Shown one piece after another: positions 5,352 to 18,054 of a stretch of 47,443 nucleotides of DNA. Under the pieces are notes generated by a model. The model did not search any database. It was not told the DNA's origin and worked only from the letters and a program-made list of their open reading frames with translations. Within the stretch, counting starts at the first letter, position 1. Each line of letters opens with the position of its first letter. Origin of the DNA: Bdellovibrionales bacterium (lineage in GTDB: Bacteria > Bdellovibrionota > Bdellovibrionia > Bdellovibrionales > Bdellovibrionaceae); the NCBI GenBank assembly GCA_005793345.1, contig SXSU01000023.1, positions 1-47,443 on the forward strand, in the 5' to 3' direction. A program made the position numbers and the translations under genes.

Positions 5352-6205
5352 ATCTTAAATCAAGTTGAATTTGTAACAAAAGGCCAAATTCTGGGTGAAA
5401 TTCTGGATGCATATGATTATTTAGAAGAGTCAGATCAAGGAAAAAGCTTCAATGCGTTTTGGGATTTTTTAATGTCTTCAGAAATGCAAGTGGATTTGAA
5501 CTCAATGGTCAATCAAATTCTTAATACTGATGAAATAAAAAATTATATTACTGAAATTGGAAACCCCTATTATATTTTACAGCTTAAGAGATTAAAAGCA
5601 AACCTGCTCCAGGTAGGTAAAAAAGCCTTGCAGTCGAAGTTAAGACTATCAGAAGAGCTTCGTAAATTATTACATCAAAAAAGTTTGCTAGAAAACACAC
5701 AAGTCATGAATGAAATTTATGAAATAAAAAAATTATTTGTGGAAAACAAAAAATTATTTTCAGATTTTTCAGATGAAAAATTTATGAATATGAATTTTAT
5801 GCCAGAAATATTTTTACCGATGGAACGACCAATTGGGCCTTGACTACAGAGATAGATTTTGGGGCAAAACAATTTGAAATAGGCAAGAATTGAACTGATA
5901 TAAAGAGCAAACAACTTGAAGAGCTTAAGGCAAGCTTTAAGCTGGATAAAAAAGAATTATATAATAATTTAAAGAAGTGTTTGGAAAATAAAGATAAAGT
6001 AACATTAAAAGAAATAGTTGAAAAATTTCCAATTCAAAAAGGAATTTCAGAAATAATCGCTTATATTGATATTGCAAATGATAGAGCCGCAAGCAGTATC
6101 GATAGCAAAGCAGAAATCAATATTCACTTCAAATCACGAAATCACTCTCGTGGAAGTGTTGAATTGGACGATGTAATTTTTAAAAAAATGCATGAAAAAA
6201 ATTAA
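5352..6205 (+). pseudogene. Relic jetA (DUF3375; Wadjet JetA, MukF-like), truncated and frameshifted
   Basis: Two open segments together spell the C-terminal part of a DUF3375 protein, the kleisin-like subunit of Wadjet plasmid-defence complexes. Segment one (5352-5843) contains VTKGQILGEILDAYDYLEES and FNAFWDFLMSS. Segment two (frame of 5843-6205) contains EIVEKFPIQKGISEIIAYI. The N-terminal roughly 200 residues are absent: an in-frame TAA at 5349-5351 precedes the segment and no family sequence lies upstream. The reading frame shifts near 5838-5843, and a further in-frame TGA lies at 5891-5893. Several independent lesions make this a pseudogene rather than a sequencing slip. Confidence 0.82.
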
Positions 6206-6219
6206 AGGTGTTAACTTGA

Positions 6220-6876
6220 ATGGAATATAACGAAAAAAAGAGTTTAGAAATAAGACCAGTTTTGGTAAAGTTACTACAAGGTTTTTTAACCCATGAAAAT
6301 AAGAAACAATGGGAGACTTTACTGATTCACCAAGATTATGTCAGAAATTATTTTAAATTTTTAGGTTTATATGTTCATTTAAATCGTGAAGATGGGTTTG
6401 CTTTTTTAAAAACTTCTCCAGATGATTCTTTAAAATTAACAGATGAAGATCTTGATTTGGAGATGCATGAAAATGAAGTTCTGCGCGATTCAGAAGGAGA
6501 TTACAAAGAGGCATCGTTAATTCGAAAAATGCCCCTATCTTTTGAAGTGAGTTTACTTTTAGTATTATTGCGTGAAGCAATTGAACAGTACGATGTAAAA
6601 GTAAGTGATGACTACCGCTTAATTTTAAAGAAGCAAGATATTTATGAAATGCTTAAAACTTTTTACCAATCAACTTACCAAAGTGGAGGCGATGAAACTA
6701 AAATTCTTCGAAAATTTGATGCGCTTATCGTTAAGATTTGCAGCATGGGTTTTATGAAGGAACTAAAATTAAACTCCGGGGTGTATGAGGTTAAAAGAAC
6801 TATCAAAGCTTTTATGAATCCAACTCAACTTAAAGTGATTAAAGAAAAAATGAAAATATATTTGGAGCAACATTAA
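6220..6876 (+). CDS. jetB: JetB-like protein (DUF4194; Wadjet JetB, MukE-like), probably orphaned
   Basis: A 218-residue open frame matching the DUF4194 / MukE-like subunit that joins JetA and JetC in Wadjet condensins. Winged-helix-type segments such as SFEVSLLLVLLREAIEQYD and LRKFDALIVKICSMGFMKEL are recognisable. The frame is intact and of family length, but both partners on either side are broken, so it probably has no complex to join. The ATG at 6220 follows jetA by 14 bases, and jetC's original ATG lies one base after its stop (6878), the usual jetABC order. Confidence 0.75.
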   Translation: MEYNEKKSLEIRPVLVKLLQGFLTHENKKQWETLLIHQDYVRNYFKFLGLYVHLNREDGFAFLKTSPDDSLKLTDEDLDLEMHENEVLRDSEGDYKEASLIRKMPLSFEVSLLLVLLREAIEQYDVKVSDDYRLILKKQDIYEMLKTFYQSTYQSGGDETKILRKFDALIVKICSMGFMKELKLNSGVYEVKRTIKAFMNPTQLKVIKEKMKIYLEQH

Positions 6877-6877
6877 A

Positions 6878-7945
6878 ATGCAAAAAAAGTGAATCCTTAT
6901 TTAAAGATAAACTACAATCGGTTGAGGGGGGATATAAATTAGCAGCCCTTGAAATTCTTAATTGGGGCACTTTCGATGGAAATATTTGGAAATTACAGGT
7001 GGATGGTAATCCTGTCTTGTTGACAGGTGAAAATGGATCTGGGAAGTTGACAATCGTAGATGCACTTTTAACACTATTAGTTTCAAATCAACGTCGCAAT
7101 TATAATTTATCCTCTGGAAGTGGTAGAAGAGAACGATCAGAAGTGACCTATGTTAAGGGGGCTTATGGTCGAGAGCAAGACAAACAGGGAATTGCTAAAA
7201 TTAAATTTTGCAGAAATGAGAATGGGAATTGTAGTGTCTTGCTTGCACGATTTACAAATTATTTACTAAAGGAAAACTTTACTATTGCTCAATTTTTTTG
7301 GTTCGATAGCGGGGAACTTAAAAAGTTTTACGTTACAGCAAATGAAAACTTATCTATTGAAAAACATTTTTCTGAATTTCAAATAGCCAGTTCTTTACGT
7401 ATAAAATTAAAATCAATTTCGCATGTAAATGTTTATGATAGTTTCAGCGAATATCAAATAAATTTCTTGAGTGCTTTTGGTACAAAATCATTGAAAGCCA
7501 TGGATCTTTTTAATCAAGTTGTGGCAATAAAAGAAGTTGGTTCTCTCAGTGAGTTTGTAAGAAAGCACATGTTAGAGCCAAAAAGTGTTCAGGATTTAAT
7601 TGATCAATTGTTTTCAAATTATGAAAATCTCAACTTATCCCACCAAGCAATTTTGAGCGCAAGAAGTCAACTTGACTTTTTAACTCCAATAGGTGAGTTG
7701 AATGATTTACTATGTAAACAAAAAAAAGAACTTGATTTAATAGAGCAAGAAGAAAAAAAGACACCTTTGTTTTTTAACCATAAAAGAAAATCAGTATTGG
7801 ATTTTCAACTTTACTTAGACCAAATCGTGCAATTAAAATACTTCATTCAGAATTAGTAAATCAAAATTATTCAGAAATTATAATTTTAAACACAACCAAT
7901 GAAGAATTTGAAAATAATTTCTGTGAAAAAAAAAACTTCCTTTAA
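6878..7945 (+). pseudogene. Relic jetC (SMC-like ATPase of Wadjet, MukB-like), truncated
   Basis: The N-terminal ATPase part of a Wadjet JetC is readable: LEILNWGTFDG, then GENGSGKLT, YVKGAYGRE and FSEYQINFLSAFGTK. Lesions are visible. The probable ATG at 6878 is followed by seven A residues (6882-6888) that put it out of frame with the body; six A's would restore it. The Walker A residue after Lys is Leu instead of Ser/Thr. The frame shifts near 7835, continues in another phase and ends at 7943-7945. The coiled coils and C-terminal signature half are missing, and JetD is not found. A GTG at 6999 opens the longest clean stretch but begins inside the conserved domain. Confidence 0.82.
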
Positions 7946-8669
7946 CTATTTTCAATTCAATAAATTAAATAAGGAATTCAAAATTACTTTAGCAGATTTT
8001 CCGGAAGTTATTTCAATACTTCTTGAGTTAGGATGGGACGTTTGGGCTGATAATTTAAGAGTAAAGCTTTTAGATAGTTTAAAAATAGATATTTAAACTT
8101 TTGGCTTAGATTTTAGCTTTGAGTTGTATGACAAATCCACAAATTACAAATTTGAAAGTTGGCAATTAATTCATATCTTAAAACGAAAACAGGCTTTTAT
8201 TAAATTAGATGATGGCAGCCTAGGAGTGCTTCCTAAAGATTGGTTAAATAAATTATTTCAAATTATGAAAACATTCAAAAATGACAGTCAATTTACACAG
8301 GCAGATCTTTTTGCGATGTCTCATTATGAAGAAAAATTTGATTTAGATATTGAGGGCGATGAGAGTTACAATCAACAGATACAAAAATTGCAAAATGGAC
8401 TTTATAATGAGGGTCCAATAGCACTTGAGTCAGGTCCTGAATTTAATGGAGAATTATTTGGGTACCAAAAACAAGGATTAGGTTGGTTAAAATTTTTAGA
8501 TGAATTTTACTTGGGTGGTTTGCTGGCTGATGAAATGGGCCTAGGTAAGACAGTTCAAGTGATTGCTTTTTTAGATCTACTAAAAAGTGAAGGAAAACTT
8601 GAAACTACACTTATCGTAGCTCCTAAATCTTTAGTCTCTCAATGTAAAGAAAGTGTTAAAAAATTTTAA
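7899..8669 (+). pseudogene. Relic SNF2-family helicase (N-terminal part only)
   Basis: This frame reads an SNF2-associated N-terminal region (DFPEVISILLELGWDVWAD, then LDDGSLGVLPKDWL) and the first half of an SNF2 ATPase: FGYQKQGLGWLKFL, motif I DEMGLGKTVQ, and motif Ia TLIVAPKSLVSQC. An in-frame TAA at 8094-8096 splits it, and it stops for good at 8667-8669, before motif II. The rest of the ATPase and the entire second RecA lobe are gone. It abuts and overlaps the jetC relic at a run of ten A's (7926-7935), so the junction probably reflects a deletion that joined two defence genes. Confidence 0.8.
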
Positions 8670-8935
8670 AACTGCATGAATCAAAATAAAATTTGCCAAT
8701 CTGATTCAAACAACTGAAAATGATTTTTTCAGTAATTTATCAAAAAGCGAGTTCGAAACTTTATTTTCGTAACCATGATATGAAAATTTAAACATATTTA
8801 TGTGAACCAAGAGAAAGACAGGATTATTTCGAAAATATGCGAAAATCCGAAATAGACTTGTGGAAATCACAGTAGATATTAAAATAAAATGAAGTTTAAT
8901 GAAGGCAGAGGCGAATTGGCTCCCAATTTGCATTA
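8670..8935 (+). other. Gene remnant region, no intact frame
   Basis: The 266 bases between the SNF2 relic and the XPB-like gene hold no convincing gene. Short stretches are rich in Lys, Arg and Glu in changing frames, as expected for eroded coding sequence, but no family could be named. A 75-codon frame on the minus strand (8706-8933) has no supported start or recognisable content. Confidence 0.4.
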
Positions 8936-10336
8936 ATGCAAATTATGGAAATAAAGTTTGATCAAGGTACATATTTAGTAAATGTAAAATCCGAAATTCG
9001 AAGTTCAAAGGAATTAGTTTCGGAACTTCAAAAAAATTTTGGAATGGTTTGGGATAGTAGAGTTCAATTATTTCGAGTCTTAGCAAATAAAAAAACTGAC
9101 TTTATTAAGTACCTCGAATCAATTGATATAAAAATTAAAATTATAGTAAATCCTAAAAAAATCAACTTTATCCAATTTAATAACAATTTAAAATGGAATA
9201 GTGAGATTCAACTTAGAGATTATCAAAAAGATGCGGCTTTAAATTGGATTAAAAATAATAATCGGGGCATAGTAATTTTGCCGACTGGTGCTTGAAAAAC
9301 ACGGCTGAGTATTTATTGTATTTCAAAGGTAAATAAAACCACATTAATATTAGTTCCAACAAGAGTTTTACTTCATCAGTGGATTGAATCAATTAAAGAA
9401 TTTTACTTAGAGGCAATAGGATTATTAGGAGATGGAAATGTAAAAATAGAAAAAATAACTGTTTGTACATTTGAAAGTGCAAAAATTTGGATGGCTCAAG
9501 TTGGAGACCTATTTGATTTAGTAATTGTTGATGAAGCTCATCACTTTATTAGTGATTATGGTAGAGAAATTCTAGAAATGAGCCCGAGTAGTCAAATTCT
9601 TGGTTTATCAGCTACTTTTACTGATGATGTTTCAGAGTTAAAAAAAGTAAAACCATATTTGGGAGATGTTGTATACAAATTAAGTTTATTAGACTTAAAA
9701 GGAAAAGTTTTAGCAAATTATAAACATATTATTCAAGAGGTTAGTCTTAGTAGTGCAGATCAATTTTTTTATAATAAAAAAATGCAAGATTTCAAATCCT
9801 TGATAGATAAACTTCAAAGCGACTCTGAAAATTTACTTAATAAAAAAGAAATTTTTCAATTATTATTAAAATCAAATAAAGGAAAACAAGCATTAAGTTG
9901 TTTACATCAGGCAAAAGCAATTGTTGCTCGTTGTGACTCTAAAATTATATATTTAAATGAGCTTTTGCTGAGATTTAGACATAAAAAGATTCTGATTTAT
10001 ACAGCTGATACAATAATGGCGATGAGAGTTGCAAAAAACTTATTTATAATGCCGATCACAGCTCAGACCACTCAAAAACAACGAAAGATAATAATCGAAA
10101 GTTTTAAGAGAAATGAGATTGGTGCATTAGTTACTTGTAAAGTTTTAAATGAAGGTTTTGATGTTCCCAATGCTGATATGGCGATTATTATTGGAGGGAC
10201 TCAGGGTAGACGTGAACATGTACAAAGAATTGGAAGAATTTTGCGTCCCTCTGAAGGAAAAGTTGCTATTGTTTATGAGTTAATTTGCAAAGGTACTTTT
10301 GAAATTCATCACTCTAATTTAAGGAATACAAACTAA
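8936..10336 (+). pseudogene. XPB-like SF2 helicase with a TGA inside Walker A
   Basis: One reading frame from 8936 to 10336 encodes a complete XPB-type helicase of 466 positions, interrupted by a single TGA at 9293-9295. The interrupted motif reads ILPTGA-stop-KT, where the family has PTGAGKT; GGA to TGA explains it. After the stop the frame continues with LILVPTRVLLHQW (Ia), VDEAHH (motif II, about residue 199), GLSAT (III), LVTCKVLNEGFDVP (V) and QRIGRILRPSEGK (VI). The N-terminus has the XPB damage-recognition-like segment and LRDYQKDAALNWI. A restart at 9491 would lack motif I and be inactive. Sequencing error or rare readthrough are the alternatives. The Bax1-like gene follows after 77 bases. 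Confidence 0.85.
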
Positions 10337-10370
10337 AGTTTGTATTTTCAAACTTTAGTTTGGGTTTTCA
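10325..10370. repeat. Double inverted repeat over the XPB stop codon
   Basis: A 9-bp perfect stem AATACAAAC (10325-10333) / GTTTGTATT (10338-10346) has the XPB stop codon in its four-base loop. A second stem CAAAC (10349-10353) / GTTTG (10358-10362) follows. The two stems are also complementary to each other, so alternative pairings exist. A similar CAAAC-TTTC-GTTTG hairpin followed by ATTTTCAT occurs in the repeat at 31379-31410. It may act as a 3' mRNA stabiliser or attenuator before the Bax1-like gene. Confidence 0.6.
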
Positions 10371-10413
10371 TAATAAGATTACTAAATATAACCAGCTTTA
10401 AATTGGATCAATA

Positions 10414-11703
10414 ATGAAGCAAGTAAAATTACCTTATACAATAGTAAATAATCAAATTATACCTCAGTTTTATAATGAGCTAGACTTTCCATGGTTAAAA
10501 AAACTATTAAATGAATTAGACAAATTTAAAAACAAATCAGTTCTTGAATGGCAAGATTATTCAAAAAGAGGTTTTGACTTTGATAAACCTTATATAATAT
10601 TCATGTTTGCATTATCAGAAATTGAAAAAAAACTTATTGAAGAAAATCTTGAAAGCGAAACTGGTGATAAAATTGACTCTTTTGAGTTGAGACTAAATTT
10701 ATTTAAATCTGTTCAACAAGTTAAAATTAATAACTTTGATGATACTAAAATTGGAATAAAAAAATTTAGACAATTGAGCTATTCCAATATTTTTATTAAT
10801 TATAAGAATGAAAGTTGGGTTCAAAGTTTAACAGATAATTATAAAAAAATAAAAAGTATTAAAGAGTATACTGAAACTCCACTAGAAGATTTTATCGATT
10901 TAAATTTATTTAATGACACTGATGAATTAAAATTAATTAAGGGTACGAATAAATTTCAAGACATAAATTTTTTAATTAATTTTTTAAATTCAAACTTAAT
11001 TCGAAAGTTGATGCTCAATTCTGTTGTAGTAGAAATTGAAACGACTGACCATTGCAAAAGAATCATGAGACAGGCTAAGTTAAGGGGATTAATTTGTGAA
11101 ATAAAAACCAGTGACGGTCTTAAATATAGAATAAGAATTTCAGGTCCGCTATCTGTTTTAAAGGAAACTAAAATATATGGAAAAAGACTGCACGAATTCA
11201 TTCCTATTTTATTTTGGAGTTACAAATTTAAATTAAAAGCAAAATGTAAGTTTTTGGATAGTCAATATTCTGATTTATTTATAGACTCCTCTATGCAATT
11301 AAAACCAGCTAATCCTCCAAAAAATTTTGATAGATTACTAGAAGAAAAATTTTATAAAGAGTTTAGTCAACTTAATCCAGCTTACTCAATCTGGAGAGAA
11401 GCTGAGCCTTTTAAATTAGAAGACAGATTATTTTTTCCTGACTTTACGATCGAAGGAGGGGATTTGGTTAGCCCGATAGTGATAGAGATTGTTGGATATT
11501 GGGGTGATGAATACATTCAAAAAAAAATTGAAGAAATACATACTCTAAAAAATAGAAAATGCATATTTTGTATAAACTCAAAATATAAAATCGAATTTGA
11601 TATCCCAATTACTCAAAATCATCAGTATATTTTTTTTAAAAGAAAAATTGGCGCAAAACAAGTGATGGAGGCTATTAATTTAATAAACTTAAGTTTAAAA
11701 TGA
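10414..11703 (+). CDS. Bax1-like nuclease (DUF790), partner of XPB
   Basis: A 429-residue protein matching DUF790, the family of archaeal Bax1, a nuclease that binds and stimulates XPB helicase in DNA unwinding and cleavage. Recognisable segments are the LRGLICEIKTSDGLKYRIRI / SGPLSVL region (residues about 225-250) and the C-terminal nuclease core with REAEPFKLEDRLFFPDFT and VIEIVGYWGDEYIQKKIEEI; the PDF and EIVG acidic residues fit a PD-(D/E)xK-like site. The frame is intact and ends in TGA. It sits directly behind the broken XPB-like gene, the usual pairing, so it is either free-standing now or evidence that XPB is still made. Confidence 0.75.
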   Translation: MKQVKLPYTIVNNQIIPQFYNELDFPWLKKLLNELDKFKNKSVLEWQDYSKRGFDFDKPYIIFMFALSEIEKKLIEENLESETGDKIDSFELRLNLFKSVQQVKINNFDDTKIGIKKFRQLSYSNIFINYKNESWVQSLTDNYKKIKSIKEYTETPLEDFIDLNLFNDTDELKLIKGTNKFQDINFLINFLNSNLIRKLMLNSVVVEIETTDHCKRIMRQAKLRGLICEIKTSDGLKYRIRISGPLSVLKETKIYGKRLHEFIPILFWSYKFKLKAKCKFLDSQYSDLFIDSSMQLKPANPPKNFDRLLEEKFYKEFSQLNPAYSIWREAEPFKLEDRLFFPDFTIEGGDLVSPIVIEIVGYWGDEYIQKKIEEIHTLKNRKCIFCINSKYKIEFDIPITQNHQYIFFKRKIGAKQVMEAINLINLSLK

Positions 11704-11985
11704 ATTTTTATTTATGAAAGATAGACGCGAGAATGTTTTGATAACTAGAAGCAAAGAATAAAAACTTTTAAAATTAGAAATTAATTTGACTTTTTAAATT
11801 TTTTACTTATTCTGTGTGGTTATTACTACAGGATTGTATTTATCCAATCCATTGAGTTAAATCGAACTAAACCTATCTCCTTTATAGTATCTTCATATAA
11901 TTACATTTTTAGTAACTTCAGATAATGTAGTGGATTTTATTCATAAATTTAGAACTCCAGACATCCTAAAAAGTTAATTAATAAG

Positions 11986-12002
11986 AGTATAAATTTTATA
12001 CT
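11986..12002. promoter_or_regulatory. Inverted repeat, possible operator
   Basis: AGTATAA / TTATACT arms with a three-base spacer form a 17-bp palindrome. A further TATTATACT half-site follows within 20 bases (ending at 12022). It lies about 200 bases upstream of the peptide start. It could be a dimeric regulator site, but no regulator gene is adjacent and AT-rich palindromes arise by chance. Confidence 0.3.
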
Positions 12003-12156
12003 TTTAAATATAAATATTATACTGTTCTATTGATCAAATAATTCTCTAAATTTGCTTAATTTCTTTAAAAATAGAATAAAATTTATTCAATTCGAATAAA
12101 GTAAACTTAAATTCATTGAGAACTGGGCTTTATATTGCAACTCCCAATATTTATAA

Positions 12157-12175
12157 AAACATGAATTTCATGTTT
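12157..12175. promoter_or_regulatory. Perfect 19-bp palindrome upstream of the peptide gene
   Basis: AAACATGAA (12157-12165), T, TTCATGTTT (12167-12175) is a perfect inverted repeat that ends 28 bases before the peptide ATG and 15 before its Shine-Dalgarno sequence. Its position suits an operator just downstream of a promoter, or a 5' UTR hairpin that stabilises a highly expressed short mRNA. No family-specific protein site is recognised. Confidence 0.5.
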
Positions 12176-12203
12176 AAATTGCAAATTAATAAAGGAGTAT
12201 AAA

Positions 12204-12278
12204 ATGGGAAAAAGAAGATCAGAGTTAACTACATTAGGAACTGGCACAGAAGTTATTTCAACAACAAATTCTAAGTAA
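12204..12278 (+). CDS. Candidate RiPP precursor peptide, 24 residues
   Basis: A 24-codon gene with an unusually strong ribosome binding site: AAAGGAG at 12191-12197, six bases before ATG. The peptide begins MGKRRSEL (a short basic leader-like part). The rest is dominated by hydroxyl and glycine residues: Ser/Thr at 6, 9, 10, 13, 15, 19, 20, 21 and 23, Gly at 12 and 14, no Cys. It is followed by two hairpins and then, 106 bases after its stop, by a YcaO-domain gene and an ABC exporter. This is the classic order precursor, attenuator, modifying enzyme, exporter of ribosomally made modified peptides. YcaO enzymes can form oxazolines from Ser/Thr or modify backbone amides. The function is inferred from context; the peptide matches no class I know. 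Confidence 0.62.
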   Translation: MGKRRSELTTLGTGTEVISTTNSK

Positions 12279-12305
12279 AAAATAAATTTTATAAATATTA
12301 CACAT

Positions 12306-12326
12306 GAGGTGATTACCAATCACCTC
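12306..12326 (+). terminator. Hairpin after the peptide gene (attenuator-like)
   Basis: Perfect 9-bp stem GAGGTGATT / AATCACCTC with loop ACC. There is no long T run after it, so it may protect the 3' end of the short peptide mRNA or partly terminate. The inner TGATT...AATCA pairs match second hairpins of the dispersed repeats at 31353 and 36600, with different outer base pairs. Confidence 0.55.
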
Positions 12327-12337
12327 AACTTTCTATT

Positions 12338-12363
12338 AAAACCATAATTTTAATTATGGTTTT
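12338..12363. terminator. AT-rich hairpin between peptide gene and YcaO gene
   Basis: Arms AAAACCATAATT (12338-12349) and AATTATGGTTTT (12352-12363) form a 12-bp stem with a two-base loop, A-rich on the 5' side and T-rich on the 3' side, as in a bidirectional intrinsic terminator. It ends 20 bases before the YcaO ATG. Partial termination here would make the peptide mRNA more abundant than the enzyme mRNA. Confidence 0.55.
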
Positions 12364-12383
12364 ATCATTAGGGAAAAATCTTT

Positions 12384-13628
12384 ATGAATAAAAATTCAAT
12401 TATGGAAATTAATTTAAACAATCAAGTAGTTGAGTCCCAAATGAGAAATAAATTAGATGAATGCCTGCAAGAATTGAAGTTAAATAAGCAAATAATTGAA
12501 CAGTCCTCCGACAAAAGAGTTACTTTTTCTTGTTTATACAATTTAGAGGGAGAAGAAGTATCTGCGGGATCAGGCAATGGATTGTCATCAGAAGTAAAAT
12601 CGTTTGCAGAATCTATAGAACATTTATTTGTATATAAATTTCGATCGCAGATACTAAAAAAAAGTATTTCAGAAATTAAAAATCAAATTGAATTTAAAAA
12701 TGATAAAATTCTAAATGCAATTGATAAGAACGAAAAAATTGAAACGTCTCTTTTTAGATCTCTTTTGGAACCACAAAAATTAATTTATGTACCTACAAAC
12801 TATGTAGAAATGGGTTCGCAAGAACGTGATTTTCATAAACTAACACAGTATTTTTCATCTTCAGGATTTAGTTTTCATTCAAACTTTATTGAGGCCACAT
12901 ATCATGGGTTGTTGGAGCTTATGGAACGTCATATATATTCTAAGTTCTTGTTAGGATACTATAATGCTGTTTCAGTTAATTTTGAAGTTGTTAATTCTGG
13001 GAATGAAGCTGTCGATAAGTGGGTTTTCGAACATGTTAAAAAGATGGAATTACAATTTAACGGAAAAATAATTTTACTTTTGATTATTTCACCATTTGCT
13101 GTGAATACTACTTTGGCGATTTTCTATCCTAATGATAATTCTTCAGATAAAAAAATTCTCATTCCTCAGATAGGCTCGAAGTGCGCTTTAAATTTTGGTG
13201 AATCTTTAGTAGGTTCAATAAATGAATTAAATCAAGTTTTATATTTGTATTCTGATGAAGAAAAAAACGAAGATCAAAAGATTCTAAATAAATTTTTAGA
13301 TGATAAAAATGCATTAAATATTGTTTTACTTAGTGATATAAAGAGTAATGTGAATAGTTATTGTTGCTTTAATGATTCAAGATTAAATTATAGCAAGAGT
13401 GGTGTCGCAAAACTTCTAAAAACAACTGAAGATAAAATAAGTTACTTAATTATTCAACTTAAAGATCTTGGGTATTATCCATTATTCAGAATTATAAATG
13501 AATTTAAAAATGAATGTTGTATCGTGCAAACTTTTATACCTGGCTTTGAAAAATTTAATCTCATTAGAAATGGAATTAAATTAGAGCCACATATGAAAAT
13601 GATAACAAAAAATAATAAAGAGATCTAG
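12384..13628 (+). CDS. YcaO-domain enzyme, candidate RiPP-modifying ATPase
   Basis: A 414-residue protein with the YcaO pattern. GSGNGLSSE (62-70) stands for the GKG loop, with E76 and E79 in SFAESIEHL. The second ATP/Mg site is EATYHGLLELMERH (E170, E178, E181), followed by ALNFGESLVGSINELNQ around residue 270. The C-terminal ending GYYPLF...TFIPGFEKF corresponds to the family's RVxxPGLE segment. YcaO proteins phosphorylate peptide amides with ATP to make azolines, thioamides or amidines. The Ser of the usual Sx3E motif is Lys here, and no proline-rich PxPxP tail is seen. No TfuA, E1-like or dehydrogenase partner is nearby. AGGGA lies nine bases before ATG; the ABC gene starts one base after the stop. 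Confidence 0.8.
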   Translation: MNKNSIMEINLNNQVVESQMRNKLDECLQELKLNKQIIEQSSDKRVTFSCLYNLEGEEVSAGSGNGLSSEVKSFAESIEHLFVYKFRSQILKKSISEIKNQIEFKNDKILNAIDKNEKIETSLFRSLLEPQKLIYVPTNYVEMGSQERDFHKLTQYFSSSGFSFHSNFIEATYHGLLELMERHIYSKFLLGYYNAVSVNFEVVNSGNEAVDKWVFEHVKKMELQFNGKIILLLIISPFAVNTTLAIFYPNDNSSDKKILIPQIGSKCALNFGESLVGSINELNQVLYLYSDEEKNEDQKILNKFLDDKNALNIVLLSDIKSNVNSYCCFNDSRLNYSKSGVAKLLKTTEDKISYLIIQLKDLGYYPLFRIINEFKNECCIVQTFIPGFEKFNLIRNGIKLEPHMKMITKNNKEI

Positions 13629-13629
13629 T

Positions 13630-15312
13630 ATGAATTATATTTTAAAATTTTTTAAAGAAGCCTATTCCTCAAATAAAAAGTTAATAATTATAAATTTATT
13701 ATTAACTACAAGTTATAAAATTCTAATTATTTTATTGCCAGTTGCTGTTGGCAATGCTTTTGATATTTTAAATAAAGTAAAAAGCTTAATGAGCAATTCT
13801 ATCAGCTTAGATTTTTCCATTGCTATTGGTACAATTATATTATTACTGTTATTAATAATATTCGTATCTCCTTTTCAAGCAAAAGTGCAGTCAGAATTAG
13901 TTAATAATATTATTTTGCAAAAATCTATAGACTGGTTCAATACTTTGTTTTCTAAAGATTTTAGATTCTTTATAAATAAAAATGCTGCTCGAAATGCAAA
14001 TATAGTTGAAAGAGCACTTCAAGCTCATGAAAAATTATTAAATCATTTATTTGAAGTCATCTTACCGGTGATTATTGAAATTCTAATTTCAATATTTGTA
14101 TTATCTAAAATTGTCGGTTTTTACTTTATTCCATACTTAATAATAATGATTTTATTTCAACTTAAGTTTACGCTAAAATTAATTAATGAACGTCGACACC
14201 ATATCAGTGAACTTAACGAAATTGAAGATGAATCAGCAGAAATAATAATTGAAGTTTTAAGTAAGGGGTTACTTTATAAAACTTACAACAAAGTAAATTT
14301 AGCACTCAATAGACTCGAAAAAGTATTTAGAGAATATGCTAATAAAAATATTCTTATTAGCAAGAGTGGAAGTAAGTTAAATTTGGTGCCATTTTCATTT
14401 CAGACATTTTCGCAAATTTTTGGACTTATTTTAAGTTTTATTTTAATTCAAAAAAATTTAATATCAATTGGACAAGCGGTTGCTATTTTGGCAATTATGA
14501 ATCGCTTTTCTATATCTGTCAGTGAAAGTGTTGGTGCCTTTAGAGTATTAGATCAATTTAATATTGATATAAAAGAATTACTTTCTTTATTATCTGAACC
14601 TTCAATTTTTCGAATATCAAAAATTTTCAATTCGTATTCAGAACTTTCAAATCCAGAAAATTTAAATATAAAGGAGTTAAACTTAAAACCTTTTGAATAT
14701 TCTAAAAGCGAATTTACAATATTTTCTGACAAAAGTTTTAAATTTGAAATTGGTGATCGAGTAGTTATGACCGGACCTAGTGGGAATGGCAAATCAACAT
14801 TATTAGAGCTGTGTGCAGGTCTAGATCAAAAAAGTCGTGAAATTGTATGTCTTGATCCGAATAAAAGTTTGCAGGATTTTTCAAACGAGGAGCACTTAAG
14901 TTTAGTAATTTTTTCTCCTCAAGATCCATTAATTATCACAGGCAACATTTATGATAATTTATTAATTGAAGAAATAAAACTATCTCCATCTGAGAAAGAA
15001 AAAATCCATACTTTATTGCGAGAGTTAAGTTTAGAACACTTAATATCAAGATCTACTGAACTTTTAAATACTGAGAAAATCAGCGGAGGGGAAGCCAAGA
15101 GAATTTCGATTGCGAGAAGTTTAATGCGATCTGCAAAAGTATATTTATTTGATGAGCCAACAGCTGGACTTAACGAAGAATTACAGAAAAAAGTTTGGGA
15201 TTGTATTTTTACTTATACTAAAGACTCGATACTAATATGTACAACACATGACTCGTCAATTATATCTGAATTTTCTCGTAAAGTTACAGTTTTAAAGGGT
15301 GCTGTCGAATAA
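13630..15312 (+). CDS. ABC exporter (fused membrane and ATPase domains), candidate peptide exporter
   Basis: A 560-residue half-transporter with six membrane segments (about residues 15-300), then an ATPase domain. Walker A is GPSGNGKST (about 381-389), the Q-loop is SPQDP, the signature ISGGEAKR lies near 484, Walker B is VYLFDEPTAG near 503, and the H-loop is CTTHD. All catalytic parts are present. There is no N-terminal C39 peptidase domain, so any leader removal would need another protease. The gene starts one base after the YcaO stop, so the two are co-translated, supporting export of, or immunity to, the modified peptide. Confidence 0.85.
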   Translation: MNYILKFFKEAYSSNKKLIIINLLLTTSYKILIILLPVAVGNAFDILNKVKSLMSNSISLDFSIAIGTIILLLLLIIFVSPFQAKVQSELVNNIILQKSIDWFNTLFSKDFRFFINKNAARNANIVERALQAHEKLLNHLFEVILPVIIEILISIFVLSKIVGFYFIPYLIIMILFQLKFTLKLINERRHHISELNEIEDESAEIIIEVLSKGLLYKTYNKVNLALNRLEKVFREYANKNILISKSGSKLNLVPFSFQTFSQIFGLILSFILIQKNLISIGQAVAILAIMNRFSISVSESVGAFRVLDQFNIDIKELLSLLSEPSIFRISKIFNSYSELSNPENLNIKELNLKPFEYSKSEFTIFSDKSFKFEIGDRVVMTGPSGNGKSTLLELCAGLDQKSREIVCLDPNKSLQDFSNEEHLSLVIFSPQDPLIITGNIYDNLLIEEIKLSPSEKEKIHTLLRELSLEHLISRSTELLNTEKISGGEAKRISIARSLMRSAKVYLFDEPTAGLNEELQKKVWDCIFTYTKDSILICTTHDSSIISEFSRKVTVLKGAVE

Positions 15313-16530: not shown

Positions 16531-18054
16531 ATGAGTTTATTAAGTAGTGAAGATATAGCGCTTTTATCTGATTTGACATATTTAAATAAACTTCCAGGTT
16601 TTCTCTTTGAAAAAGTAATTACTCTTTTTTCTGTTAAAAAATTTTCTATTGGCGAAATAATTTTAAATCAAAACCAAACAAATTCAATTCTATATATTCT
16701 TAAAAGTGGAAAATTGGATATTCTTGTAGATAATGAGCGCATAACTCATATTGAGACTCCAGGTGAACCAGTTGGTGATATAAGCGCAATCCTAGGAAGA
16801 ACAGTAACTGCTTCAATTGTGGCCGCAACAGATGTTGAACTTATTTTTCTTGATCTCGAGTCTTTAGCAGATACTCGAATTGAATATACAAAATTTATTC
16901 AAAAATTTAAAGAAGCCTATATTGATATTTTAGTAGAGCGAATTATAAGAATAAATGAAAAGGCAAAATTATTAGGAGAAGTTTCGCGTAAATTATCAAT
17001 TGTTCAAGAGCAATTAAGAATGACAAAGCTTGAATATGAAAATCAACTTAAATCAAATCAGATGTCATTAAAGAAAAAATCTGTATTGTTTTGTGATGCA
17101 ATTCAAAAGGATCAAGCTCTTGCAAAATTAGCGTTTGGTGGTACTGGTGTAGAAGTTAAAGTTGCAAACACTGAAAACGAATTTGATAAACTAATAAATA
17201 ATAGTAATTTTGATCTTCTATTTTGTGAAATGAGTTTAGCAGATAATCTATTAAATAAAGAAATTAAAGCAGAACAAGTAATTAGTTCAAAATCAACAAA
17301 AAATAAAACATTTTCAAATCAAATTGATAAAACAGTTTTAATGGTAAGACCGACTGGGGATTCATACTTTGGCGATTTGAAAAAATATATTAATATTCCG
17401 AATGTAATTACTATTGCTCATAGAAATAGAAATTCGACAATTAAAAATATTGTAACCTCTGTTAATAAAATATTATATCATGATTTATTTGGTCTTGAAA
17501 AATATTTAATGTGGGGAGTAGAGGTAAATTCAGAATATGTTGTTGATAGTGACAATCGGCATGTTGTGAATTCGAATATGGTTAAATATTTTAAACAAAT
17601 GGGAGTAAGAACCAGCATACTTGATCGAGTATACTCTGTTGCAGAAGAGATGTTGATGAATGCAATTTACGATGCTCCAGTTGATAAGAATGGAAAACCA
17701 ATTTTTAATCATTTACCCCGTACTCAAAAAATAACTCTTGAAGAGAAAATGCGTCCTACTTTACGATATGCTACAGATGGCTTATCAATAGCATTTTCTG
17801 TTGAAGATCCATTTGGTTGTATAAAAAGAGAAACAATTCTTAAATATTTACACGATTGTTCCCAAGGAAAAATTCAAATGGATGTTAAAGAAAAAGCTGG
17901 AGCTGGACGGGGACTTTATCAAATGGTTATGCTTTCAGATGATATAATATTTAATATTGAACATGATGTAAAAACAGAAGTAATTTCAGTTATACAACTA
18001 GAGTTAGAACGAGATTCAGAAAAATTTCCAAGAATCAGTTATTTCTATAAATAA
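16531..18054 (+). CDS. Cyclic-nucleotide-binding, receiver-like and HATPase multidomain protein
   Basis: A 507-residue cytoplasmic protein. Residues about 20-130 form a cNMP-binding beta-barrel (ILNQNQTNSILYILKSGKLDILVD, then GEPVGDISAIL...TASIVAAT). A coiled-coil linker spans about 140-180. Residues about 185-310 look like a degenerate receiver (VLFCDA, FDLLFCEMSLADN, then TVLMVRP). The C-terminus, about 370-490, carries HATPase features: EEMLMNAIYDAP as an N-box and KAGAGRGLYQM as a G-box, as in GHKL/anti-sigma kinases. No phosphorylatable His region is evident, so it may act as a serine kinase or a switch. The ribosome binding site AGAAAGGAG is strong. It is probably co-transcribed with the MBL gene. 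Confidence 0.65.
   Translation: MSLLSSEDIALLSDLTYLNKLPGFLFEKVITLFSVKKFSIGEIILNQNQTNSILYILKSGKLDILVDNERITHIETPGEPVGDISAILGRTVTASIVAATDVELIFLDLESLADTRIEYTKFIQKFKEAYIDILVERIIRINEKAKLLGEVSRKLSIVQEQLRMTKLEYENQLKSNQMSLKKKSVLFCDAIQKDQALAKLAFGGTGVEVKVANTENEFDKLINNSNFDLLFCEMSLADNLLNKEIKAEQVISSKSTKNKTFSNQIDKTVLMVRPTGDSYFGDLKKYINIPNVITIAHRNRNSTIKNIVTSVNKILYHDLFGLEKYLMWGVEVNSEYVVDSDNRHVVNSNMVKYFKQMGVRTSILDRVYSVAEEMLMNAIYDAPVDKNGKPIFNHLPRTQKITLEEKMRPTLRYATDGLSIAFSVEDPFGCIKRETILKYLHDCSQGKIQMDVKEKAGAGRGLYQMVMLSDDIIFNIEHDVKTEVISVIQLELERDSEKFPRISYFYK

Follow-up and report, generated by a model that had tools for sequence, protein, structure and literature searches.

A short conserved peptide gene beside a solitary YcaO and an ABC exporter in Bdellovibrionota genomes and on Vibrio plasmids: a candidate RiPP unit

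The window analysed here is a stretch of 47,443 bases (contig C130) of the draft genome of a Bdellovibrionales bacterium (3.96 Mb, 83% complete). It contains a very short peptide gene, followed by the gene of a solitary YcaO protein and, after a single base, by the gene of an ATP-binding cassette (ABC) exporter. At least six units of this kind are found, in genomes of the same phylum and on Vibrio plasmids, and they are likely to be units for ribosomally synthesized and post-translationally modified peptides (RiPPs), in which the YcaO protein is predicted to modify the peptide and the exporter would release the product, the N-terminal end of the peptide being favored as the core. The 24-residue ORF (open reading frame) with its strong ribosome site, the two hairpins, the YcaO gene and the ABC gene one base later, as described in the original prediction, are all present, and the genes of the unit are as follows.

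12193 to 12197, + strand: ribosome binding site AGGAG of the peptide gene, read from the sequence, 6 bases before the ATG.
12204 to 12278, + strand: peptide gene of 24 codons plus stop, encoding MGKRRSELTTLGTGTEVISTTNSK; evidence from the ORF, its codon fit and a start that is conserved upstream of related YcaO genes.
12204 to 12230, + strand: N-terminal block MGKRRSELT (codons 1–9), conserved across 14 distinct peptides, comprising the Met and the likely core.
12384 to 13628, + strand: solitary YcaO protein of 414 residues (Pfam PF02624, E 1.4e-20), with model and fold matches and a place in the clade described below.
13630 to 15312, + strand: ABC exporter of 560 residues (PF00005, E 7.5e-22), in which no peptidase domain is found; related partner genes are present in L028 and L029 (phylum genomes) and in L147–L149 (Vibrio plasmids).

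The relatives of this unit were all located by the similarity of their YcaO proteins, without use of the peptide. A first protein search gave five YcaO homologues (P0002–P0006) that come without DNA context, and a further protein search with a profile made from these five gave no more relatives. When a profile of six YcaO sequences is compared with 368 genomes of the phylum (E ≤ 0.001), 21 genomes match, that of the window included, and regions were fetched for 19 of the 20 others (G086 was left out). In two of them (G271 and G137, loci L028 and L029) a full-length YcaO relative has an ABC exporter gene directly after it, the two genes overlapping by 14 bases in L028 and by ATGA in L029. Upstream of these YcaO genes there are short ORFs with a GGAG ribosome site, encoding MGRRTEINIGAILPPITIIESTFFQTLK and MGNRRSEINPVPFLTEEGTTKTEEQFFLLLFN, respectively. 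Three more loci (L147–L149) are carried by Vibrio plasmids, as found by tblastn of the L028 and L029 YcaO proteins among 72,556 plasmid records; their YcaO proteins are 26–32% identical to these two, the order is again short ORF, YcaO and ABC, and the peptides encoded are MGKKRSEINSPNDPTCQGIEFNLSAKMKVSKEWEFFDFLFQ, MGNKRSEINGPTGPNLEFCFSDQSSKKNSKERDFFAFLLA and one that is almost the same as MGNKRSEINGPTGPNLEFCFSDQSSKKNSKERDFFAFLLA. The last two Vibrio loci are near-identical, so that the six loci count as five independent cases. The record genes of the Vibrio plasmids, in a gene table that is incomplete, list the peptide in one of the three.

Other searches gave no further members. The YcaO protein of the window, when compared alone with 59 near genomes, matches only its own genome, and tblastn with it against the plasmids gave no relative; tblastn of one Vibrio peptide against the plasmids returned nothing besides the three Vibrio loci, and relatives of the Vibrio YcaO were found neither in phages nor in viral contigs. 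Scans of genome and viral contigs with the YcaO of the window or with the six-sequence profile also gave no relative, and the patterns used in these scans were probably too narrow, because L028 and L029 emerged later by other means.

A common start, MG(x)[KR]R[ST]E[IL][NT], is found in the six peptides. A GGAG is present at the position of the ribosome site in all six loci, and in the window the peptide ORF fits the codon usage of the coding genes by +12.2 bits (−8.4 and −20.3 bits in the shifted frames). A profile of the six peptides was compared with 5.8 billion proteins, and all ten candidates pass (E 5e-15 to 1.1e-3). Four of these ten have Vibrio names, two repeat the peptides of L147 and L029 and eight are new, which gives 14 distinct peptides in total. 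Met1, Gly2, Arg5 and Glu7 are identical in all 14, position 3 is missing in L028, and position 4 is always Lys or Arg; Ser is found at position 6 in 13 peptides and Thr in one, whereas at positions 8 and 9 the window alone has Leu and Thr and the 13 others have Ile and Asn. The codons of this block vary synonymously (GGA/GGG/GGT, AGA/CGT, GAA/GAG and ATA/ATC/ATT), which shows that it is the amino acids that are kept. The rest of the peptide is variable in length and sequence, except for an F-[FL]-x-x-L at the C-terminus of 13 of the 14; this C-terminus is also conserved when the peptide reaches 41 or 44 residues.

The original prediction expected a pattern RRSEL-TTL-GTG upstream of related YcaO genes; its RRSEL part is indeed conserved and the remainder is not. 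Its description of the peptide as free of Cys and rich in Ser/Thr (nine of the 24 residues) is correct for the window and does not extend to the family, as Cys is present in 6 of the 14 distinct peptides and the Ser/Thr pattern is not general. Close relatives (P0007 and P0009) have Phe at the Cys site, so the peptides do not need a Cys. At 24 residues the peptide of the window is the shortest member, and it may be either a genuine short form or one that has lost part of its length; the intact reading frames of the YcaO and ABC genes speak for a working unit. Beyond its stop codon (12279–12347) the peptide frame stays open for 22 further codons, in an AT-rich stretch where this may be due to chance.

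The presence of an upstream peptide beside the relatives of this YcaO was a check that had been set beforehand, and such a peptide is found in all six YcaO–ABC loci of the clade. The looser motif MG(x0-2)[KR][ST]E, which was set after the peptides had been seen, occurs within 400 nt upstream in these six loci and in 1 of 21 other YcaO genes (27 genes tested). Among the plasmid records, 15 matched, 8 were fetched, upstream ORFs were listed in 7 and 6 were motif-tested; L151, which is a near copy of L150, and L162 are outside this test, and L032 is represented by its second YcaO only, the first being at the contig edge. The single exception is L153, on a Mycobacteroides chelonae plasmid (5353–6822), where a peptide MGITRTERV...ADFFAPL... 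precedes the YcaO gene and a major facilitator superfamily (MFS) transporter gene is found two genes on; perhaps this is a distant member with another exporter. When five of the upstream regions are shuffled in two-base blocks, 7 to 52 of 20,000 shuffles per region yield an ORF with the motif. Of 14,048 ORFs with a start codon in the window and in the fetched regions of 20 YcaO loci of the phylum, five match a looser motif, and the three of these that have a ribosome site are the peptides of the window, L028 and L029. The DNA pattern of ribosome site plus motif is found in 8 of the 368 phylum genomes (the backwards pattern in 2); three matches are these same loci, and the other five are placed within a longer ORF, across one or antisense to one, and the DNA fetched around them has no YcaO gene. 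In viral contigs the motif pattern is found in 86 stretches, and a YcaO gene is present in none of the 80 that were examined. A chance ORF was dropped as an explanation on the basis of the DNA-pattern search of the phylum genomes and the shuffles.

In a tree of 31 YcaO proteins the six peptide-bearing sequences and the five homologues without context lie on one side of a branch (support 89/87, and recovered in 92% of 200 bootstrap trees). E76, E79, E178, E181, R182, E281 and Q284 are invariant in all 11 members of this clade, and we take these columns to be the ATP-binding residues. The YcaO fold spans approximately residues 13–395 of the window's protein, as shown by fold comparisons; no RiPP recognition domain is listed in these comparisons, which does not prove its absence. 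The closest sequence match in the PDB is McbD (E 2.6e-7), and against the SagD-type model TIGR03604 the score is 50.1 bits, with a cut-off of 219.25; the relatives L028 (35.7), L029 (38.7), L147 (28.4) and L148 (28.0 bits) are also below this value. A PxPxP C-terminus is found in none of the 11 clade members, as compared with 5 of the 20 other YcaO proteins. A proline-rich C-terminus or PxPxP is typical of azoline-forming YcaO proteins, according to PMC8442711 and PMC12670281.

The ABC partners are related to that of the window as well: L028 is 30.8% identical to the exporter of the window (E 6e-82) and L029 27.3% (E 4e-52), and the Vibrio proteins match with E 1e-30 to 9e-24, whereas the sole other exporter that was compared is weaker (22%, E 2e-16). 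The transmembrane model PF00664 gives 16.9 bits for the window's protein, below the cut-off of 28, and a peptidase domain is found by Pfam in none of four of the six ABC proteins. The genome of the window has one YcaO gene. TfuA is not matched in any of the three phylum genomes, with a positive Methanosarcina control and a window genome that is 83% complete, and neither an E1-like/ThiF protein nor a dehydrogenase nor TfuA is present among the flanking proteins scanned. In all six clade loci a ribosomally encoded short peptide is conserved beside an enzyme of a modifying type, which is one feature of a RiPP unit, and we infer that the YcaO protein acts on this peptide.

In the mechanism that we propose, the YcaO protein would employ ATP for activating one of the backbone amides of the peptide, apparently without a partner; amide activation with ATP is established for the YcaO superfamily. 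The conserved N-terminal block, without its Met and starting at Gly, would be the product, and the variable rest would be a follower, with the C-terminal F-[FL]-x-x-L perhaps helping in docking. A Met before Gly is normally removed, so that the invariant Gly2 would result in a fixed free Gly amine. A core at the N-terminus is favored because Gly2, the hydroxyl at position 6, Glu7 and Asn/Thr9 are kept across YcaO proteins that are 21–28% identical to that of the window, and the tail is not. The product may be the basic N-terminus itself, which had earlier been read as a short end resembling a leader. Later removal of the follower might be the task of a protease of the host, for which the TldD/PmbA family, matched in all three phylum genomes, is a candidate. 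Instead of a thiazole, the reaction would give an amidine or close a ring at one of the conserved positions Ser/Thr6 and Asn/Thr9, and the exporter would then carry the product out of the cell. Asn chemistry is reportedly involved in YcaO-made pyrimidones. Thiazole chemistry was dropped, as the peptide of the window has no Cys and Cys is not conserved in the others, and so was a likeness of the peptide to PqqA. Archaeal YcaO proteins can reportedly form thioamides in vitro without TfuA, and thioamide formation without TfuA is kept among the conceivable outcomes.

Several points weigh against this proposal. Conserved N-termini of precursors are usually leaders, and the ten extra peptides were recruited via shared words, so their N-terminal identity is partly an effect of ascertainment. 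The peptide of the window is the least typical member, as it lacks F-[FL]-x-x-L and has Leu8/Thr9 in place of Ile/Asn, and short ORFs starting with MG are also found upstream of YcaO genes outside the clade (L150, L152 and L153), those of L150 and L152 having a different sequence. The support of the clade branch is below the 95 that earns a star. The test for the E1-like TIGR03882 is weak: none of the three phylum genomes matches, but none of the 14 controls passes the cut-off either, and the genome of the window is 83% complete. Modification, product, export and function are predicted from the genes.

The main rival is the reversed polarity, in which a very short leader is formed by the N-terminal 8–9 residues and the tail (TLGTGTEVISTTNSK in the window) is a hypervariable core, modified by the YcaO protein and released by the ABC exporter. 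This is a credible though less probable assignment. In RiPP precursors it is usually the leader that is conserved, the tail does vary in length and sequence, and in the window it holds eight Ser/Thr as possible sites; a strict Met-Gly and a conserved Asn/Thr9, however, would be unneeded in a leader that is discarded, and the far end of 13 of the 14 tails has F-[FL]-x-x-L with little else shared. The lack of a row for a RiPP recognition domain in the fold comparison points in the same direction, as weak evidence. A core at the N-terminus with a variable follower, as in bottromycin, is tentatively favored over leader plus core.

It is also conceivable, though improbable, that the YcaO–ABC pair acts on a non-peptide or a large protein, with the peptide as a small protein of accessory or toxin-like type. 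The link between peptide and YcaO is one of gene context, not of biochemistry. The YcaO protein of Escherichia coli is linked to a ribosomal protein. An NCBIfam YcaO model for S12 methylthiolation exists (NF040716), which the clade members compared with it do not match, and roles of YcaO proteins outside RiPPs are noted for Proteobacteria in PMC8442711. Against such a target, the peptide is the only other conserved neighbor observed across the six loci, and in the 368 phylum genomes its pattern, where it forms a free-standing ORF, is always beside one of these YcaO genes.

An even less probable explanation is that the short ORF encodes a leader peptide with a regulatory role, in which ribosome stalling at the Arg-rich start would switch the hairpins and thereby YcaO and ABC genes that serve another substrate. 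The elements between and upstream of the genes that bear on this are the following.

12157 to 12175, strand not assigned: perfect 9-bp inverted repeat with 1 base between its arms, upstream of the ribosome site of the peptide; possibly a candidate operator or regulator site that is placed with the unit by its position only.
12305 to 12327, + strand: hairpin 1, 10 bp, terminator-like, from folding; a hairpin is also present in L028 and L029.
12337 to 12364, + strand: hairpin 2, a perfect 13-bp inverted repeat, from folding and repeat search.

The region 12190–12400 (211 nt) folds with z = −2.98, and the basic N-terminus and the short ORF with hairpins upstream of the operon in the window, L028 and L029 agree with a regulatory leader. 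A stable hairpin between peptide and YcaO is, however, limited to these three of the six loci: the three Vibrio loci keep the peptide with gaps of 23–30 nt and have no stable hairpin (−0.8 to −3.0 kcal/mol), which makes an attenuator role of the peptide unlikely. The attenuator-like hairpin of the original prediction is not general. Peptides of up to 41 and 44 residues with a conserved C-terminus are also not in agreement with it. If the peptide is not an attenuator, the hairpins of the window would only set transcript ratios, with the level of the ycaO–ABC transcript below that of the peptide. An Rfam scan of the window gave no match, and promoter-like sites are not commoner in it than in shuffles.

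When compared with known systems, the unit is of a known kind, a RiPP-type pathway with a YcaO protein, and its precursor family, clade and partnerless layout match none of the families tested, as the original prediction had anticipated for a RiPP-like peptide–YcaO–exporter unit. NCBIfam precursor models give no family for any of the six precursors tested, that of L153 included. Among known systems with an N-terminal core and a follower is that of bottromycin (precursor BtmD, YcaO proteins BtmE and BtmF), and the conservation pattern of the peptides would agree with such an arrangement here. In bottromycin the product comes from the N-terminus of the precursor, followed by a follower, and attack of the Gly1 amine on a backbone amide is given as a plausible route to the amidine in PMC5103208, which describes no cyclodehydratase partner gene in the cluster. 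Macrocyclization is assigned there to a YcaO with a partner protein, and in PMC8442711 both YcaO proteins are partnerless. Bottromycin clusters differ in having two YcaO proteins, a hydrolase and tailoring by methyl-group and P450 enzymes, where here one YcaO and a pump are present.

The azoline systems (linear azole-containing peptides and thiazole/oxazole-modified microcins, such as microcin B17 with McbBCD) also have a YcaO, a short precursor and an exporter in one cluster, but here the scanned neighbors include no E1-like or dehydrogenase gene, TIGR03604 is below its cut-off, the clade lacks the PxPxP C-terminus and the peptide of the window has no Cys. The streptamidine (ami) cluster is similar to the unit in that its standalone YcaO has ABC transporters and a short precursor without annotation nearby (PMC8442711). 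Streptamidine, however, depends on genes for AmiB (E1-like fold), a hydrolase, a dehydrogenase and an iron transporter, and its precursors have ALV in both motifs; AmiB, AmiC, AmiE and FecBCDE-type genes are not found among the scanned flanking proteins or the annotated Vibrio neighbors, and ALV is present in none of the 14 peptides. The YcaO–TfuA thioamidated RiPPs share the YcaO and the short precursor and differ in TfuA, which is matched in none of the three phylum genomes. The discrete archaeal YcaO proteins (Methanocaldococcus MJ1094 and Methanopyrus) modify McrA or have unknown targets, and the protein of the window scores 24.6 bits against TIGR03266, far below the cut-off of 365. Among the papers listed by literature searches, none has a title on the peptide–YcaO–ABC unit.

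Other genes in and around these loci are recorded here as separate observations. In the window, positions 6220–11703 contain a DUF4194/MksE-like gene, an AAA fragment, an SNF2 fragment, an XPB-like helicase in two pieces and a Bax1/DUF790 gene, an assemblage that resembles the decayed remains of a condensin- or Wadjet-like and helicase–nuclease island beside the unit. A cyclic-nucleotide-binding protein at 16531–18054 has a weak match to TIGR03896 (bacteriocin-transport-associated; 20.9 bits, cut-off 161), which is probably due to a shared domain only. In L148 and L149 an annotated GNAT acetyltransferase and a class I methyltransferase are found 1–5 kb past the ABC gene and could be tailoring enzymes, and in L147 (Vibrio sp. 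16, 8673–13149) the annotated neighbors of the unit include a second ABC system, which bears a peptidase, and a protein that has a glycosyltransferase domain of the TcdA/TcdB type. Outside the clade, the plasmids of L150 (Pantoea) and L151 (Acinetobacter) share at 5808–8024 a 43-residue ORF starting with MG (MGYLNSGISN...), a YcaO gene and a methyltransferase gene, possibly another YcaO peptide unit. In two genomes of the window's family (L030, 56–2343; L035, 5899–9080) a YcaO gene is beside a ThiF and rhodanese protein (PF00899 and PF00581), perhaps a sulfur-inserting pair, and L032 (G337, 1–2261) has two tandem YcaO genes at a contig edge.

It is possible, as a more tentative proposal, that these units form a new RiPP class, spread over plasmids and the genomes of distant bacteria. 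In such a class a partnerless YcaO would turn the N-terminal GxxR[ST]E[IL][NT] into a modified octapeptide, with an N-terminal amidine or a ring via Asn/Thr9, and the ABC exporter would release it. Known YcaO peptide pathways mostly use partner proteins, and a peptide, a YcaO protein and a pump would be about the smallest possible YcaO peptide pathway. With the conserved start of the peptide one can search for this gene, which is easily overlooked, and the system is common to Vibrio plasmids and genomes of the phylum of the window.

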